Assembly: GCA_013388905.1 (NCBI GenBank)
Contig: JACAEI010000040.1
Location: forward strand, 1 to 64,000
Direction of reading: 5' to 3'
DNA length: 64,000 nt
Origin: Candidatus Bathyarchaeota archaeon
GTDB lineage: Archaea > Thermoproteota > Bathyarchaeia > Bathyarchaeales > Bathycorpusculaceae
In this document: piece by piece, positions 5,857 to 53,031 of the stretch
Layout of the letters: each line of letters opens with the position of its first letter
Numbering within the stretch: the stretch's first letter is position 1
Position numbers and translations under genes: made by a program
Notes under the pieces: model-generated
Told to the model about the DNA's origin: nothing
Seen by the model: only the letters and a program-made list of their open reading frames with translations
Database searches by the model: none

Positions 5857-5959
5857 GCTCAACACTCCAATTTTTATATGCAATCACAAGTTTGATTTAA
5901 ATGCATTCTTTCTAAAGATAAGATGCAAAAAACATACGGTTGAGAGGAGGTGACAAAAT

Positions 5960-6214
5960 ACGGATCTGCTTGACATATACGTTCTTAACTTGGCGATTAC
6001 TGTAGCCATGTTTGCAGTTCTGGTTTTTCGAGCTTGGATTGAGATGAAGAATTATCGCATGATGTGGCGAGAATTAGAATGGCGACAGACTTATCAGACC
6101 ATGGGAAGACTTCTCAAAGCAGAAAAAGACCTATTTGCGAAAGTGGAGGGCGGCGAAGAATTATATCAGATGTTGTGCGAAATCTTCAGAGTAAACGAAG
6201 ATAAAAAACTTTAA
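5960..6214 (+). CDS. small single-TM protein with apparent ACG start
   Basis: Predicted 84-residue protein: a hydrophobic helix (DLLDIYVLNLAITVAMFAVL) followed by an amphipathic, charged helix rich in Arg, Glu and Lys. No family recognised. A very strong ribosome binding site (GGAGGTG, 5946-5952) is followed 7 nt later by ACG at 5960, and an in-frame stop at 5951 closes the frame upstream. The first conventional start is TTG 5990, which is 37 nt from the site and would cut the helix. CTG 5966 is an alternative. The gene is convergent with tiaS and their ends overlap by 4 nt. Confidence 0.6.
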   Translation, partial: TDLLDIYVLNLAITVAMFAVLVFRAWIEMKNYRMMWRELEWRQTYQTMGRLLKAEKDLFAKVEGGEELYQMLCEIFRVNEDKKL

Positions 6215-19214: not shown

Positions 19215-21599
19215 ATGAATGTTATGTTTTGGCTTCTAGATGTGAACTACGAAGTTAAAGATGGTGCGCCGGAAATTTGGCTTTGGGGTGTTAGCGATTC
19301 TGGAAAGCGCGTACTGATTATTGACAGAAATTTTGTTGCATATTTCTATGCTGTGATTGAAGAAAGTGCTGATTCAGCTAAAATTGCTAAGGAAATTGAT
19401 ACAGAAAAATATCCTTCTATTGTGAAGCTTGACATTGTTCAACGAAACTTTTTTGGAAAACCAATTAAAGCCATAAAAGTTTACTGCGAAAACCCAGACG
19501 TGATACCTAAATACGCCAAAGCTTTTCGAAGCTTGGAAGGTATAAAAGACTGCCTCGAAGACGACATTCGCTATTCGATGCGTTATCTAATCGACAATAA
19601 TGTTGTTCCGTGCGGATGGCACAAAGTAGAAGCAACTGAAGAAACAGATATCAAGAATGTTCAAGTTGACAAAATCTACGAGGCGACATCCTACCCAACA
19701 CTTCTTGAGAAGGCTGATGTGCCACAACTGAAAATTCTAGGTTTCTCAACCATATGTTACAGTCGTGAAGGCTCGCCAAAACCAGACAGAAACCCAGCAA
19801 TCATCATTTCAACTGCAACAAATCATAGTAAGGAAAAACAGTTCTTGGCAAACGAGAACAAAAACGACAAGACCCTAATCGAAAACTTCATAGAATACGT
19901 GCGCAACTTCGACCCAGATGTTATCGTAGGATATGGCATAAATGGACGTGACTGGCAATATCTTAGTGAGCGGTGCAAGAAACTAGGCTTACAATTACAC
20001 GTGGATAGAGCTGGAACCGAACCTCACACAAGTGTGTACGGTCATGTTTCGCTCACTGGAAGAGTCAACATAGACCTCTACGATTTCGCTGACGAATTCC
20101 CAGAAGTTAAGATTAAAACTTTGGAGAATTTGGCTGATTATTTGGGTGTCATGAAAATTGAAAATCGCACGTTGATAGAGGATGTAGACTTCGCAGATTA
20201 TTGGGATGATAAGAATAAACGTGAAACTCTCAAAAAGTTTTCAATGGAAAATACGCACTGTGTTATGGGAATAGCTGATGCCATCCTCGACTTTGCCACG
20301 CAGCTTTCAAATCTTGTAGGCTTGCCACTAGACCATGTTGGCACAGCAGCTGTAGGCTTCAGAGTAGAATGGTTCTTGATAAAGCATGCGCAGAAGATAG
20401 GTGAACTTGTGCCTAGAAGAATTGAACAGCCCTATAGACCCTACGCAGGCGCCATTGTGCTCCAACCAGAGCCGGGGCTGCATGAGAACATTGCTATTTT
20501 AGATTTTAAGTCTATGTATCCCAGCTTGATGATAACCTACAACCTCTCTCCAGACACTTACATACAACCAAAAGAGCCAGAGCCCTCAAGCGGAGTTTAC
20601 GAAGCTCCTGAAGTTAAGCACAAATTCCGAAAAGAACCAGCCGGCTTCTACAAAGAAGTGTTATCCTACCTTATTAAAGTGCGTGATGAAGTGCGTTTAA
20701 AAATGAAGAAAACCGCTCCAGAAAGCACAGAATATCGCGTTTTGGATGCTCGTCAAAAGGCTGTGAAAGTAATAACTAACGCTTCATACGGGTATGCCGG
20801 ATGGATTGGAGCGCGATGGTACATGAAACCAGTAGCCGAGGCAGCCACCGCGTTGGGAAGACACACAATTCTCAACGCTATTAAAATGGCTGAAAAAGCT
20901 GGACTAAAAGTAGTTTATGGCGACACAGACAGCTTATTCGTCAAGAATGAACCGGAAAAAATTGAAAAACTCTCCAAAGAAATTGAAGAAAAGCAAGGTT
21001 TAGAAATCAAGCCGGACAAGGTTTATACACGTATTTTCTTCACAGAAGCCAAGAAACGCTACGCTGGGCTCTTGCTAAGTGGACAACTGGAAATCGTTGG
21101 CTTAGAAGTTATTCGTGGAGACTGGGCAACCGTAGCCAAAAAAGTGCAAGAAAAGGTTTTGGAAATAATCTTGAAAGAGCAGTCACCCAAAAAAGCGGCT
21201 AGATTTGTGCAACAATTCATTACTGAATTACGGCAAAAACGTGTTCCTTATCGCGACCTTGTCATCTGGAAGACGCTAACTAAACCTGTAGAGGAATACG
21301 AGATTAAGGCTCCTCATGTAGAAGCTGCAAAAATGCTGATGGAGAAAGGTCGGAAACTCGCAGCAGGCGACAAGATAGGCTACGTGGCAGTAATTGGCAC
21401 AGGACGCCTATGTGAAAGAGTTAAACCATACATTTTCGCCTCATATGACGAAGTAGACATAGAATATTATGTATCAAAACAAGTTGTGCCAGCCGCAGCA
21501 AGAATCCTCGAAAGTTTTGACATAACAGAAGAGCAATTGTTAGGCTTAAAAACAGAGGAAAAGGAGACTAGAAGGCTCACAGAATTTTTCGGAAGCTAA
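19215..21599 (+). CDS. B-family DNA polymerase with degenerate exonuclease site
   Basis: 794 residues with archaeal PolB architecture. Polymerase motifs are intact: motif A LDFKSMYPS (D430), motif B KVITNASYGY (518-526), motif C YGDTDS (D570, D572). The 3'-5' exonuclease motifs are not. Exo I reads FSTI (177-180) where FDIE is expected, so both carboxylates are lost. Exo II reads YGINGRD (only D246 kept). Exo III reads FSMEN (342-346) where YxxxD is expected. It should therefore polymerise without proofreading. It may be a second, translesion-like polymerase or depend on separate proofreading. The ATG start has a purine-rich site upstream. Confidence 0.93.
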   Translation: MNVMFWLLDVNYEVKDGAPEIWLWGVSDSGKRVLIIDRNFVAYFYAVIEESADSAKIAKEIDTEKYPSIVKLDIVQRNFFGKPIKAIKVYCENPDVIPKYAKAFRSLEGIKDCLEDDIRYSMRYLIDNNVVPCGWHKVEATEETDIKNVQVDKIYEATSYPTLLEKADVPQLKILGFSTICYSREGSPKPDRNPAIIISTATNHSKEKQFLANENKNDKTLIENFIEYVRNFDPDVIVGYGINGRDWQYLSERCKKLGLQLHVDRAGTEPHTSVYGHVSLTGRVNIDLYDFADEFPEVKIKTLENLADYLGVMKIENRTLIEDVDFADYWDDKNKRETLKKFSMENTHCVMGIADAILDFATQLSNLVGLPLDHVGTAAVGFRVEWFLIKHAQKIGELVPRRIEQPYRPYAGAIVLQPEPGLHENIAILDFKSMYPSLMITYNLSPDTYIQPKEPEPSSGVYEAPEVKHKFRKEPAGFYKEVLSYLIKVRDEVRLKMKKTAPESTEYRVLDARQKAVKVITNASYGYAGWIGARWYMKPVAEAATALGRHTILNAIKMAEKAGLKVVYGDTDSLFVKNEPEKIEKLSKEIEEKQGLEIKPDKVYTRIFFTEAKKRYAGLLLSGQLEIVGLEVIRGDWATVAKKVQEKVLEIILKEQSPKKAARFVQQFITELRQKRVPYRDLVIWKTLTKPVEEYEIKAPHVEAAKMLMEKGRKLAAGDKIGYVAVIGTGRLCERVKPYIFASYDEVDIEYYVSKQVVPAAARILESFDITEEQLLGLKTEEKETRRLTEFFGS

Positions 21600-22738
21600 C
21601 CTTCAGCAATTTCTGAAAACGTCAATAACTGAACATTTAACGAGGGTTTAACAGCTTCAGACGTACGTGATGCAATAATTTTCTTAATGTTTCTTTCGCT
21701 TGCCACATCTACAATTCTTTGTGTAATAATGCCATCAAAGACAACAGTGTCTACACCTTCTATCTGCGTAAGCTTCTCGGCTAGTTGACTTACTGGAATG
21801 CGTTCAACTTGCTCCAACTTTTCGTTTAGGAGCACAGCTTCTAAAGTGCCTTCTAACTCCTTTGCAAGCTGGGCGATTTCTTTTGGAACTTCAATTTTCT
21901 GTTTCTCTCTTTTCGGTTTGAATAGCTCTTCTATTGGGACTTTAGCTTCTAAGGCTTCGAATATTTCTTTGCAGTTCAATTCTTCAACTTCTTTGCCTCT
22001 TGGCGCCCTAGCAATGTATTTTGTGTCTGTAACCTGCAAAAGTTCTTTTAAGATTAGGTCTCCGCCTCTGTCTCCGTCGAGAAAGGCTGTAACCTCCTTT
22101 TCTTTGGAAAGTTTCTTGACGGTGTCTGGAACTTTGGCGCCTTCTAATGCTAATACGTTTAGCATTCCGCATCGCATTAGATTTATTACATCAGCTCTTC
22201 CTTCGACAAGGATTAATTCCTTAGAACTTGCGACTTCAGGACCGGCAGATAATTCTTCTGGGCCGTACTTTTCCACTTTTGCGATTTTCAAGGTTTCTGC
22301 AACTTCTTTGAAGACTTCGTCTACTGAGGGCATGGCTTCAATTGTCCATTTGTGAAGAATTTCTTTGGCTCTGTCAATAATGATTTTTCTACGGGCTTCT
22401 CTGACATCTTCAATTTTTTCTAGAGTCACTTTTGCGGCGCACGGTCCAACTCTGTTTATGCTTTCTATGCTTGCAGCCAATAAAGCAGTGGAGACTTTGT
22501 CTAGGCTTGTAGGAATGGTAATCGTGCCTGTTGTTTTGTCTTGTTTTGAATGTAGTTCGATTTCTATTCTTCCAATTCTTCCAGATTTTTGCAGTTCCCT
22601 TAGATCGAGTTCTGGTCCGAATAAGCCTTCTGTTTGTCCGAAAACTGCTCCAATAACGTCTGGTTTTTCAACTACTCCTTCTATTTCGAATTTTGCGTTT
22701 ATGACATACTTTATGGTAAACGTTTGGGATGAACCCGT
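21596..22738 (-). CDS. dnaG: archaeal DnaG primase-like protein, apparent ACG start
   Basis: Toprim-containing DnaG, which in archaea binds the RNA exosome and can prime DNA. The frame encodes the complete N-terminal domain (KYVINAKFEIEGVVEKPDVI, GQTEGLFGPELDLRELQKSG) before the Toprim core (ILVEGRADVI, AFLDGDRGGDLILKEL). Between the upstream stop (22763) and TTG 22480 there is no ATG, GTG or TTG, although homology requires the region. GGAGGTG (22752-22746) lies 7 nt before ACG 22738, giving a 380-residue protein of normal length. Ends overlap polB by 4 nt, convergent. Confidence 0.9.
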   Translation of the reverse strand, partial: TGSSQTFTIKYVINAKFEIEGVVEKPDVIGAVFGQTEGLFGPELDLRELQKSGRIGRIEIELHSKQDKTTGTITIPTSLDKVSTALLAASIESINRVGPCAAKVTLEKIEDVREARRKIIIDRAKEILHKWTIEAMPSVDEVFKEVAETLKIAKVEKYGPEELSAGPEVASSKELILVEGRADVINLMRCGMLNVLALEGAKVPDTVKKLSKEKEVTAFLDGDRGGDLILKELLQVTDTKYIARAPRGKEVEELNCKEIFEALEAKVPIEELFKPKREKQKIEVPKEIAQLAKELEGTLEAVLLNEKLEQVERIPVSQLAEKLTQIEGVDTVVFDGIITQRIVDVASERNIKKIIASRTSEAVKPSLNVQLLTFSEIAEG

Positions 22739-22844
22739 AAGCGTACACCTCCAATTGATTAGTTAGGTAAGGTTAATCGCGTGATGAGAGAACCGCGCTC
22801 TCAACTCACAATTGTTTACCTTTACTATTTATTACTTTTATGAA

Positions 22845-49828: not shown

Positions 49829-49899
49829 GCTTTAAATGTTATGGTTGTAAGCAATAGGTTTTTTAGTGTTCCATCGACACCTTATCAAGGTGAATTGAA

Positions 49900-50925
49900 A
49901 CGGTTGTTAAGAATTGGCTTCCTTCAGACGGCGATACATTTGTAACCAAAGATGGATTTGTATTCAACGCTTTCGGTTATGAGCACCCAAACGATCGAGT
50001 ATTCGCTTTTCTAAAATACATTCCGCACAAATTCAGAACACTTTTCGATGTTCGCTTCTTGGAAAGAGCGTGGAAATATGGAAAAACAAGACTTTATCGA
50101 GCTGAAAAACTGTATACAGCACAAAACTATCAAACGTTTCTCAAAACTTTTTGCAAGAATTTTCCAGATTACGTGTTTTTTGACCCTTTTAGAGGAAAAG
50201 AAGTAATTAGTGCACCTTTAAGCTCTGTAGAAAAAGTCTATGTTCCCAAGGAATGTTTGGGATTTCTAACCGAAATTAAAAGAAAAGATAGTTTACAGGA
50301 ACTGACTTTAAGGTTTATTAATTTTCTTTCAGCCAAATCAGACATTGCCGTAGAAGATTTTGGGGTTCACGGCTCTATTGCATTAGGCATGCACTCAGCT
50401 AAATCAGACATAGATATAGTTGTCTATAGTTCACAAAACTTTCGAAAGTTGGAGAAAACAATAGAGAGGCTTGTTGAAAATGGTGCGTTAAGCTATGTAA
50501 TCAGTAATCGTTTAGATGCTGCCAGACGGTTTAAGGGACGCTATATGCACAAGATTTTCATGTATAACGCAATTCGCAAACCAGAAGAAATTCATTCCAA
50601 ATATGGCATGTACAAGTATGTGCCAGTCAAGCCTATCAATTTTCACTGTACCATCACAGATGACAGCGAAGCCATGTTCCGTCCCGCTATTTATAAAATC
50701 GAAAATTACAAACCAGCTGACACAGTGTCTGTGCTCCCTAAAGAAATGATTCCGGAGCTTGTGGTTTCAATGATTGGATGCTACAGAAATGTTGCTAAAA
50801 GAGGCGACAAAATTAGAGTTTCTGGCATGCTTGAACATGTTGAAAACCTTGAAAACAGCGAAGTCTTTCATCAAGTTGTTGTTGGAACAGGCACAAGTGA
50901 GGAAGAACACATTTGGCCGCTTTAA
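49900..50925 (+). CDS. nucleotidyltransferase paralogue 1, apparent ACG start
   Basis: About 341 residues: N-terminal domain, pol-beta-type core [23 protein letters not shown] (GS...DxD), C-terminal domain ending before the next gene. The first conventional start (TTG 50059) would remove [20 protein letters not shown], which aligns with [20 protein letters not shown] of paralogue 2. GGTG (49889-49892) is followed 7 nt later by ACG 49900; a TGA at 49891 closes the frame. Activity not known. Confidence 0.8.
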
Positions 50926-51983
50926 GGCTTAGAGACCGAGACGCAATAATCACAAAAGAAGGCTTAATCTTCCGTGTTTTCGGCAATTCCCATCCATCAG
51001 ACGCATACATATGCGACGTCGAATATGCCTCTTCAAATATTTTTAAATCAGCAAATCCGAAGGCATATAGAAACGGTGAACAAGGTGTTTTTTACAAGTT
51101 TTATGAAGATGAAGGCGCAAAATTTGTTGGGGCTTATTATCCACATCATCTCGTTTTTCATGAGATGCTTCAATCAGACGTTGTAGGAGTTAAGCAATCC
51201 AACGTTGATGAATCGAGAAAACCAAACGAAAAGTTACAAGAAATAATGGGAAAGAAACCGCACGACGAGCTTATGAAGGCTTTGCACGTGGTTCTGAACT
51301 TTACTGCAGAACATTCTGGCTTGTCGACAAGGAATTTCGGCGTTTTTGGTTCATTACTGCACGATTTTTATCATCCGCAATTCTCTGACCTAGATTTCAC
51401 AATATATGGCAAAGAAGAACTAGCTAAGCTGCGTGAAACCTTACAAGAAACGTTTAAGGACAAACGGGCGGTTCTCAAAAATGAGTTCGAGAATCAGAAA
51501 TTAGTTGAAGGGAAGCCTTGGCGATTCAAAAACTTTAGTGCTAAAGAATTTGTTTTGCATCAACAGCGAAAACTAATCTACGCGGTGTTTAACAATAGAA
51601 AGAGTCGAAGAATTTTCAAGACCGAGTTTGAACCTGTAAAGGATTGGAAAGAAATCTTCAATGAATACGATTCTAGAGCGAAAATTTTTCAGAAAGGTTG
51701 GGTTAAAATGATTGCCCGCATAACAGATGACAATGATGCCCCTTTTATTCCATCAGTCTATGGCATTGAACCTTTGTTGATTATGGACGGGTTAAATGGA
51801 GCTGAGGAAGCTGTGCGCATAGTCTCTTACATGGAAGAGTTTCGATTGCATGCGTTTAAGGACGAAAAGGTTTATGTAGAAGGAAACCTGGAAGAAGTAA
51901 CTTCTCCAAAAGGCAACTTCCATCAAATAACGTTAACCTATTGCCCAAGATATTACGAGCAAGCCCTAAAAGTCGTATCTTAA
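50913..51983 (+). CDS. nucleotidyltransferase paralogue 2
   Basis: 356 residues with the same layout as its neighbours: N-terminal [16 protein letters not shown] domain, core [25 protein letters not shown] (about 144-168; GS and DxD kept), and a C-terminal domain with [19 protein letters not shown]. The TTG start overlaps the end of paralogue 1 by 13 nt, so they are co-translated. Possible functions include nucleotide or RNA 3'-end modification or a toxin-like role; none shown. Confidence 0.8.
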
Positions 51984-51988
51984 CCGAG

Positions 51989-52999
51989 CTATGCCAAAAC
52001 CATAAAATCTGAAGGCTTATTCCCAATTAGAAGCCTAAAATGCTCACGGTTATGCCTTTTATCTGTTACTTTTTCAACTTTTCCCTGAGCTATAATGACT
52101 TCGCCCGTTCTTGCCTGTTCACAGAATCTGCCGCGAAAAGAAGCTATTTCATCAATCTTTAGGCGCGTCCCATTGAGAACTGTCACATTTCTTAGTTCAT
52201 AACTGCAAGGCGTGAAAATCGCTTCTGAATCAGCTTCAATCTCAGCTTTTATCCTCGCATATCCTACGTTTTTGTAACAGATCATGCCATATTCAGCGTT
52301 AATTTCTAGTCTATCCTTGATAAACCGTATAAAATAGTCTCTATTCTTGAATTTTCCTTGCAAAACCTTCCTTGACTCGGTCTTCAAGAAATCCTTAAAA
52401 GATGTTTGCGTGTCTTGAAAGCGAAACTGATAAAGTCTTTGCAACTCTTCTTTGGAATAAGGTCTGATCGCGTTTTCCTTATCTTTGTGAGTTGTTTTCA
52501 AGGTTTCGTAGATTTTGTGGCAGTTTTCAGTGCCGTAAAAGACTGGGTCGATATCAGATTTTGGCGTGTGCAATTTTACAAGAAGCGAACCTGAAATTCC
52601 AACCTTGCTCCATGGTATATTTGTGCATCGTTTTAAGAGTTCAAGAAACTTTAGCGCGTCTCTTTCTAACTCGTCTAAATTTTCACAACATCGCAGTTCT
52701 CGTAAACGGTTAACTGGTTTATAATAACGTTTAATATCTTCTGCAGGCACTTCGCAGAGTTGTTCATCAAAAACCGAATCATAAACAATGTACTGCGGAA
52801 ATTTTTGCTCTAAAAACTTGAAACGGGTGGAAATATTGTACACTTTACTGTACTTAACTCCTTCTCGTTCACGTTCACCTTGAGGGTTTGGAATGAAACG
52901 AGGAAAGGCAATCACTTTTCTAGGCGGATGAACTAAGCCTTTAACGTCTAATATTAAACCGTCGATTGTTTCTATTAAGTCACCTTCTCGGGCCTTCAT
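51989..52999 (-). CDS. nucleotidyltransferase paralogue 3
   Basis: About 336 residues, homologous to the two preceding genes but on the other strand: N-terminal ETIDGLILDVKGLVHPPRKV, core VGISGSLLVKLHTPKSDIDPVFYG (GS and D-x-D), C-terminal IEADSEAIFTPCSYELRNV. ATG 52999 chosen; TTG 53005 also possible. Convergent with paralogue 2, 5 nt between stops. Confidence 0.8.
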   Translation of the reverse strand: MKAREGDLIETIDGLILDVKGLVHPPRKVIAFPRFIPNPQGEREREGVKYSKVYNISTRFKFLEQKFPQYIVYDSVFDEQLCEVPAEDIKRYYKPVNRLRELRCCENLDELERDALKFLELLKRCTNIPWSKVGISGSLLVKLHTPKSDIDPVFYGTENCHKIYETLKTTHKDKENAIRPYSKEELQRLYQFRFQDTQTSFKDFLKTESRKVLQGKFKNRDYFIRFIKDRLEINAEYGMICYKNVGYARIKAEIEADSEAIFTPCSYELRNVTVLNGTRLKIDEIASFRGRFCEQARTGEVIIAQGKVEKVTDKRHNREHFRLLIGNKPSDFMVLA

Positions 53000-53031
53000 C
53001 TGCAATCTTCACACAAAGTTTGTTTAAAATT

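Follow-up and report, generated by a model that had tools for sequence, protein, structure and literature searches.

Three genes with ACG in place of a canonical start codon

The window, by which we mean the whole stretch of 64,000 nucleotides that was analysed, comes from a MAG of the Bathyarchaeia, a large group of uncultured archaea. The MAG comprises 1.5 Mb in 48 contigs and is 93% complete, and its closest named relatives are MAGs of Candidatus Bathyarchaeota; all genomes with which it was compared are MAGs as well. On the reverse strand of the window lies dnaG (21596..22738), which encodes an archaeal DnaG protein with a TOPRIM domain, 380 aa long when read from an ACG codon at 22736..22738. 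After a TAA (22765-22763) the frame, which reads LINWRCTLTGSSQTFTIKYVINAKFEIEGVVEKPDVIGAVFGQTEGLFG..., runs for 94 codons without a canonical start, the first in-frame ATG, GTG or TTG being the TTG at 22480, so that the mechanical open reading frame built on canonical starts covers 21596-22480 only. Our check of the frame agrees in this respect with an earlier note on this DNA, which had reported that ATG, GTG and TTG are missing between the TAA and TTG 22480. The note had also stated that the frame encodes the conserved N-terminal domain of DnaG, and this is borne out by the match to the NCBIfam model NF003108 (E = 1.7e-144; the Toprim domain is matched as well). Position 1 of the profile aligns with residue 10 of the ACG-started protein, and the next canonical start would therefore lose the conserved N-terminal domain. 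The Shine-Dalgarno (SD) motif GGAGGTG is found where the note had placed it, at 22746..22752 on the reverse strand, 7 nt 5' of the ACG.

The same arrangement, said in the note to recur at two other genes, is present twice on the forward strand, with a spacing of 7 nt in both cases. One of these genes (5960..6214) encodes a small membrane protein of 84 aa and has ACG at 5960..5962, preceded by the SD motif GGAGGTGA at 5946..5953, which was located in the sequence and by pattern search. The other (49900..50925), identified by Pfam and by its homologues, encodes a protein of 341 aa with a nucleotidyltransferase domain (NTP_transf_2), and has ACG at 49900..49902 behind the SD motif AGGTGA at 49888..49893. 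The spacing of 7 nt common to all three genes is also that of genes that start with ATG. The region 49894-53005 holds three adjoining nucleotidyltransferase-like paralogues (49900-50925, 50913-51983 and 51989-53005); this three-paralogue arrangement recurs in other genera, and has a weak MntA-like match.

The start codon position in related genomes

The small membrane protein gene was aligned with its orthologues across 36 genomes. The start slot was occupied by ACG in 19, TTG in six, ATG in five, CTG in five and GTG in one, counts that include four rows displaced by one codon (ACG 16 + 3, TTG 5 + 1), and no other codon was seen. An SD-like motif preceded the slot in every case. With ATG, TTG, GTG or CTG filling the very same slot in orthologues, behind the same SD motif, ACG occupies the position of the start codon, and it is this gene that provides the clearest evidence in the alignments for such a position. 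CTG was found at the slot in the genomes of L113, L220, L224, L227 and L232, which suggests that it too serves as a start codon within this order.

For dnaG, a first set of near relatives showed the common motif GGAGGTG-N6/7-ACG-GGT-TCA-TC. Among 28 relatives with more than 75% identity, the aligned start codon was ACG in 27 and ATG in one. In the same 28 sequences, none of 50 invariant DnaG residues with four-fold-degenerate codons had kept a single codon, and the codon varied in all 14 of the other columns that are mostly Thr. The earlier note had named an alignment of sister genomes as a check, and the use of ATG or GTG elsewhere in the region as an outcome that would refute the ACG start; this outcome was not observed, as nearly all sisters keep ACG in place. 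Across the order (90 genomes), codon 1 was ACG in 49, ATG in 34, TTG in six and GTG in one, with at least nine switches between ACG and a canonical codon on a tree for which codon 1 had been left out, a quick tree from a short alignment with many weakly supported branches. ACG is present in families f1, f4, f6 and f7, and ATG is also found within f1 (L278, L289, L295 and L298-L300). In a member of family f2 (L271) the leader is the same and the start codon alone differs, GGAGGTGTACGCTT-ATG-GGTTCATC as against GGAGGTGTACGCTT-ACG-GGTTCATC, the next codon being GGT. This exchange of ACG, ATG, TTG and GTG among orthologues supports the central claim of the earlier note, that dnaG truly starts at ACG.

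The ACG of the nucleotidyltransferase gene is kept in 13 genomes, representing 13 genera, behind a GGTG motif, and ATG fills the slot in L089 and L090. A TAA lies immediately 5' of the ACG in L081 and L083, which excludes initiation upstream for this gene. Taken together, the comparative alignments, in which the conservation of ACG spans many genera and dozens of genomes, show that ACG is the start codon position in dnaG, the small membrane protein gene and the nucleotidyltransferase gene.

The start of the ribosomal protein eL22 (PF01776) is mostly ATG across the relatives, and ACG was found at the ATG-aligned position in L233 (G023, family f6) and L239 (G012, family f1), the latter being a weaker case owing to an additional ATG three codons downstream. 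Candidate ACG starts behind GGAGGTG were also seen in front of a gene for a cysteine-rich protein (L161, position 1515, reverse strand; G013) and one for a probable membrane protein of 169 aa (L169, position 1513, forward strand; G016). Two further reading frames attracted our attention. One, near 19447 on the reverse strand of L070, resembles an NADPH-dependent FMN reductase (KVKVLGISGSPRKNANTSFLL) and is without a start, with an upstream ATG in a different frame that suggests either an indel in a run of A or frameshifting. The other, of 259 aa, follows a GGTGA on the forward strand of L058 (11701-11707), where the start could be CTG or ATA.

ACG starts are rare in the genome

In the whole of the window's own genome, the pattern GGAGGTGN{5,7}ACG had two matches, both of them real gene starts described above and thus beyond coincidence, while the pattern AGGTGN{6,7}ACGG had 11, of which three were gene starts, namely the three already known. 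These whole-genome searches were accompanied by a survey of start codons in 690 kb of the 1.5 Mb, in which the SD-led starts (at least six SD matches) comprised 27 ATG, four ACG (three of them genuine), four TTG and three GTG. Such counts do not support genome-wide use of ACG as a start, and we rejected that possibility; ACG is confined to particular genes. A scan of codon usage for further start-less genes returned mostly apparent frameshifts or fragments. Judging from these searches and alignments, the ACG start is rare in the genome, with about three genes, yet kept by selection.

In most dnaG genes of family f1 the ACG persists, though a single transition would give ATG. As ACG was retained while all of the invariant four-fold-degenerate sites changed codon, the simplest reading, and the one that we infer, is that purifying selection holds the dnaG ACG as a weak start. 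Such long retention in the face of an available C-to-T change suggests that weak initiation is itself the selected trait.

A conserved stem-loop in the dnaG leader

Single-sequence folding and the variation of paired bases revealed a conserved stem-loop in the dnaG leader at 22775..22813 on the reverse strand. Within family f1, 22 members fold in this way with a mean z of -3.4, and the stem covaries, pair types changing while pairing is kept. No Rfam family matched the stem-loop. RNAalifold applied to a MAFFT alignment of the leader returned no structure, the arms of the hairpin being misaligned there. At the inspected dnaG loci of families f4, f6 and f7 that carry ACG, an evident leader hairpin was absent. 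The hairpin thus does not track ACG across the order, and any role in the selection of the dnaG start would be a putative one.

How the ACG codon may be read

We consider it very probable that dnaG, the small membrane protein gene and the nucleotidyltransferase gene are translated from their ACG codons by direct near-cognate initiation. The 30S subunit would be positioned through pairing of the SD and anti-SD sequences, and the ordinary initiator Met-tRNAi (anticodon CAU) would tolerate the second-position mismatch with ACG, in the manner of near-cognate starts in eukaryotes, so that the protein would begin with Met. Weak initiation itself may be under selection, either because it sets a low level of expression or because it confers sensitivity to the fidelity of initiation, as governed by aIF1. 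A tRNA search of the genome gave 38 matches with a single initiator, at the L203 locus, which has the A1:U72 pair, the GGG/CCC anticodon stem and the anticodon CAU; two further CAU tRNAs and ordinary Thr-CGU and Thr-UGU tRNAs were also present. No initiator with a CGU anticodon was found among the 38 matches, five of which lie outside the anticodon scans, in this genome that is 93% complete. An ordinary initiator and the failure to find a CGU initiator favour direct mismatch initiation. The earlier note had offered, without choosing between them, two explanations, direct initiation aided by special features of the ribosome or tRNA, and C-to-U editing of the mRNA; the former is favoured in so far as initiation is direct, and its special tRNA finds no support.

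The codons at the start slots point in the same direction. Those other than ATG, namely ACG, CTG, GTG and TTG, are single-mismatch relatives of AUG with G at the third base, and neither GCG nor TCG was seen at the slots of the small membrane protein gene and dnaG. Their absence favours direct near-cognate initiation, since editing could convert them to GUG and UUG. On the other hand, aIF1 reportedly makes initiation complexes less stable when the mRNA is non-AUG (PMC6237735), and work with P. abyssi and S. solfataricus assigned it a part in fidelity, acting against complexes on non-AUG codons (PMC6237735, PMC8211752), which makes efficient use of ACG unexpected from the known archaeal factors.

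A further counterpoint to direct initiation is that ACG and CTG are exactly the near-cognates that C-to-U editing would turn into AUG and UUG. Editing of the mRNA before translation would account for both of the non-canonical codons at the small membrane protein slot, and is what happens to the plastid transcripts of rpl2, psbL and ndhD (PMC9845219). We nevertheless regard it as unlikely here. The equally convertible GCG and TCG are not seen, and no cis motif is shared, the flanks differing on inspection (cttACGggt, aatACGgat, gaaACGgtt and catACGccg) with only the distance from the SD in common. A search with PF00383 found one deaminase, a protein of 142 aa that resembles cytidine deaminases acting on free nucleosides, in the 93% complete genome.

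It is very improbable that translation starts elsewhere, at an upstream non-canonical codon or at TTG 22480, with the ACG an internal Thr codon. An in-frame GTG is indeed found 9 nt upstream of the dnaG ACG in about eight near relatives, and an in-frame ACG two codons upstream (-6) is common among relatives. However, the GTG lies within the SD motif, as part of it, and is often out of frame in other genomes, while the upstream ACG is not conserved, being ACA in L008, L021 and L164; we rejected both as starts of dnaG. TTG 22480 was rejected as well, because a protein begun there would lack a domain that all relatives conserve. Stop codons stand just before the ACG of dnaG in L022, where a TGA is separated from the conserved region by ACG CTT ACG alone, as they do in the nucleotidyltransferase genes of L081 and L083. 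The internal Thr codons of dnaG, moreover, vary freely.

A dedicated initiator tRNA with a CGU anticodon, or initiation by Thr-tRNA, has even less to commend it, for although a Thr-CGU tRNA is present (L195), it has ordinary elongator features (G1:C72), and the sole tRNA of the initiator type among the 38 matches in this 93% complete genome, five of them outside the anticodon scans, is the CAU one. Least credible of all is an error of sequencing or assembly, contamination, or a start provided by an intron. The genome is admittedly a MAG, but tens of independent MAGs obtained in different studies carry this ACG too, and the contiguity of SD and ACG requires no upstream exon.

Discussion

In eukaryotes, near-cognate codons (CUG, GUG, UUG and ACG) serve as starts in yeast ALA1, in viral genes with ACG starts, in the Sendai virus P/C gene and at mammalian ACG starts, the last two being among the works cited in PMC9845219. 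The Bathyarchaeia resemble this pattern in placing CTG, GTG, TTG and ACG, all with G at the third base, at one slot. The likeness would extend to the machinery, as an ordinary initiator tRNA is presumed and archaea share factors of the eIF1, eIF1A and eIF2 type. Unlike the eukaryotic near-cognates, which are leaky second starts reached by scanning, the archaeal ACG is placed by an SD motif and would be the sole start of chromosomal genes. GUG and UUG starts in archaea are similarly non-AUG codons behind an SD motif, but their mismatch is at the first position and that of ACG at the second, and ACG is not accepted by gene callers.

Bacterial infC has an AUU start and is autoregulated by IF3. 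It is like the archaeal ACG genes in that a rare and weak start is conserved though one mutation would give AUG, which suggests control linked to fidelity. It differs in the codon, the position of the mismatch, the domain of life and the genes concerned, and the feedback loop is a feature of infC, where what we have here is conservation of a codon and of a leader hairpin. The plastid genes rpl2, psbL and ndhD also have a genomic ACG at the start where relatives have ATG (PMC9845219), but their transcripts are C-to-U edited, whereas the ACG of the Bathyarchaeia is known from the genes alone. The open-access literature that we searched describes ACG starts in viruses of eukaryotes, in the mitochondria of fish and, with editing, in plastids, but yielded nothing comparable in archaea or other prokaryotes.

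DnaG is an exosome-associated protein in other archaea. We tentatively propose that the Bathyarchaeia have a conserved class of genes (dnaG, the nucleotidyltransferase, the membrane protein and in places eL22) in which the ACG, and CTG, start may act as a regulatory switch tuned by start codon fidelity, possibly with the structured leader in the case of dnaG; alternatively, they could represent the first start codon C-to-U editing of mRNA in archaea. Gene finders for prokaryotes do not count ACG among their start codons, so that such genes are truncated or missed in all of these genomes. Conservation of the ACG implies that in these cells proteins are either initiated at ACG or made from mRNA in which it has been edited to AUG, and raises the question of what aIF1 and the ribosome do differently in this clade, or whether archaea edit mRNA. 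Comparative support for a conserved ACG start in a lineage of prokaryotes suggests that near-cognate initiation with a mismatch at the second codon position, regarded as typical of eukaryotes, also works in archaea, whose initiation factors are homologous.
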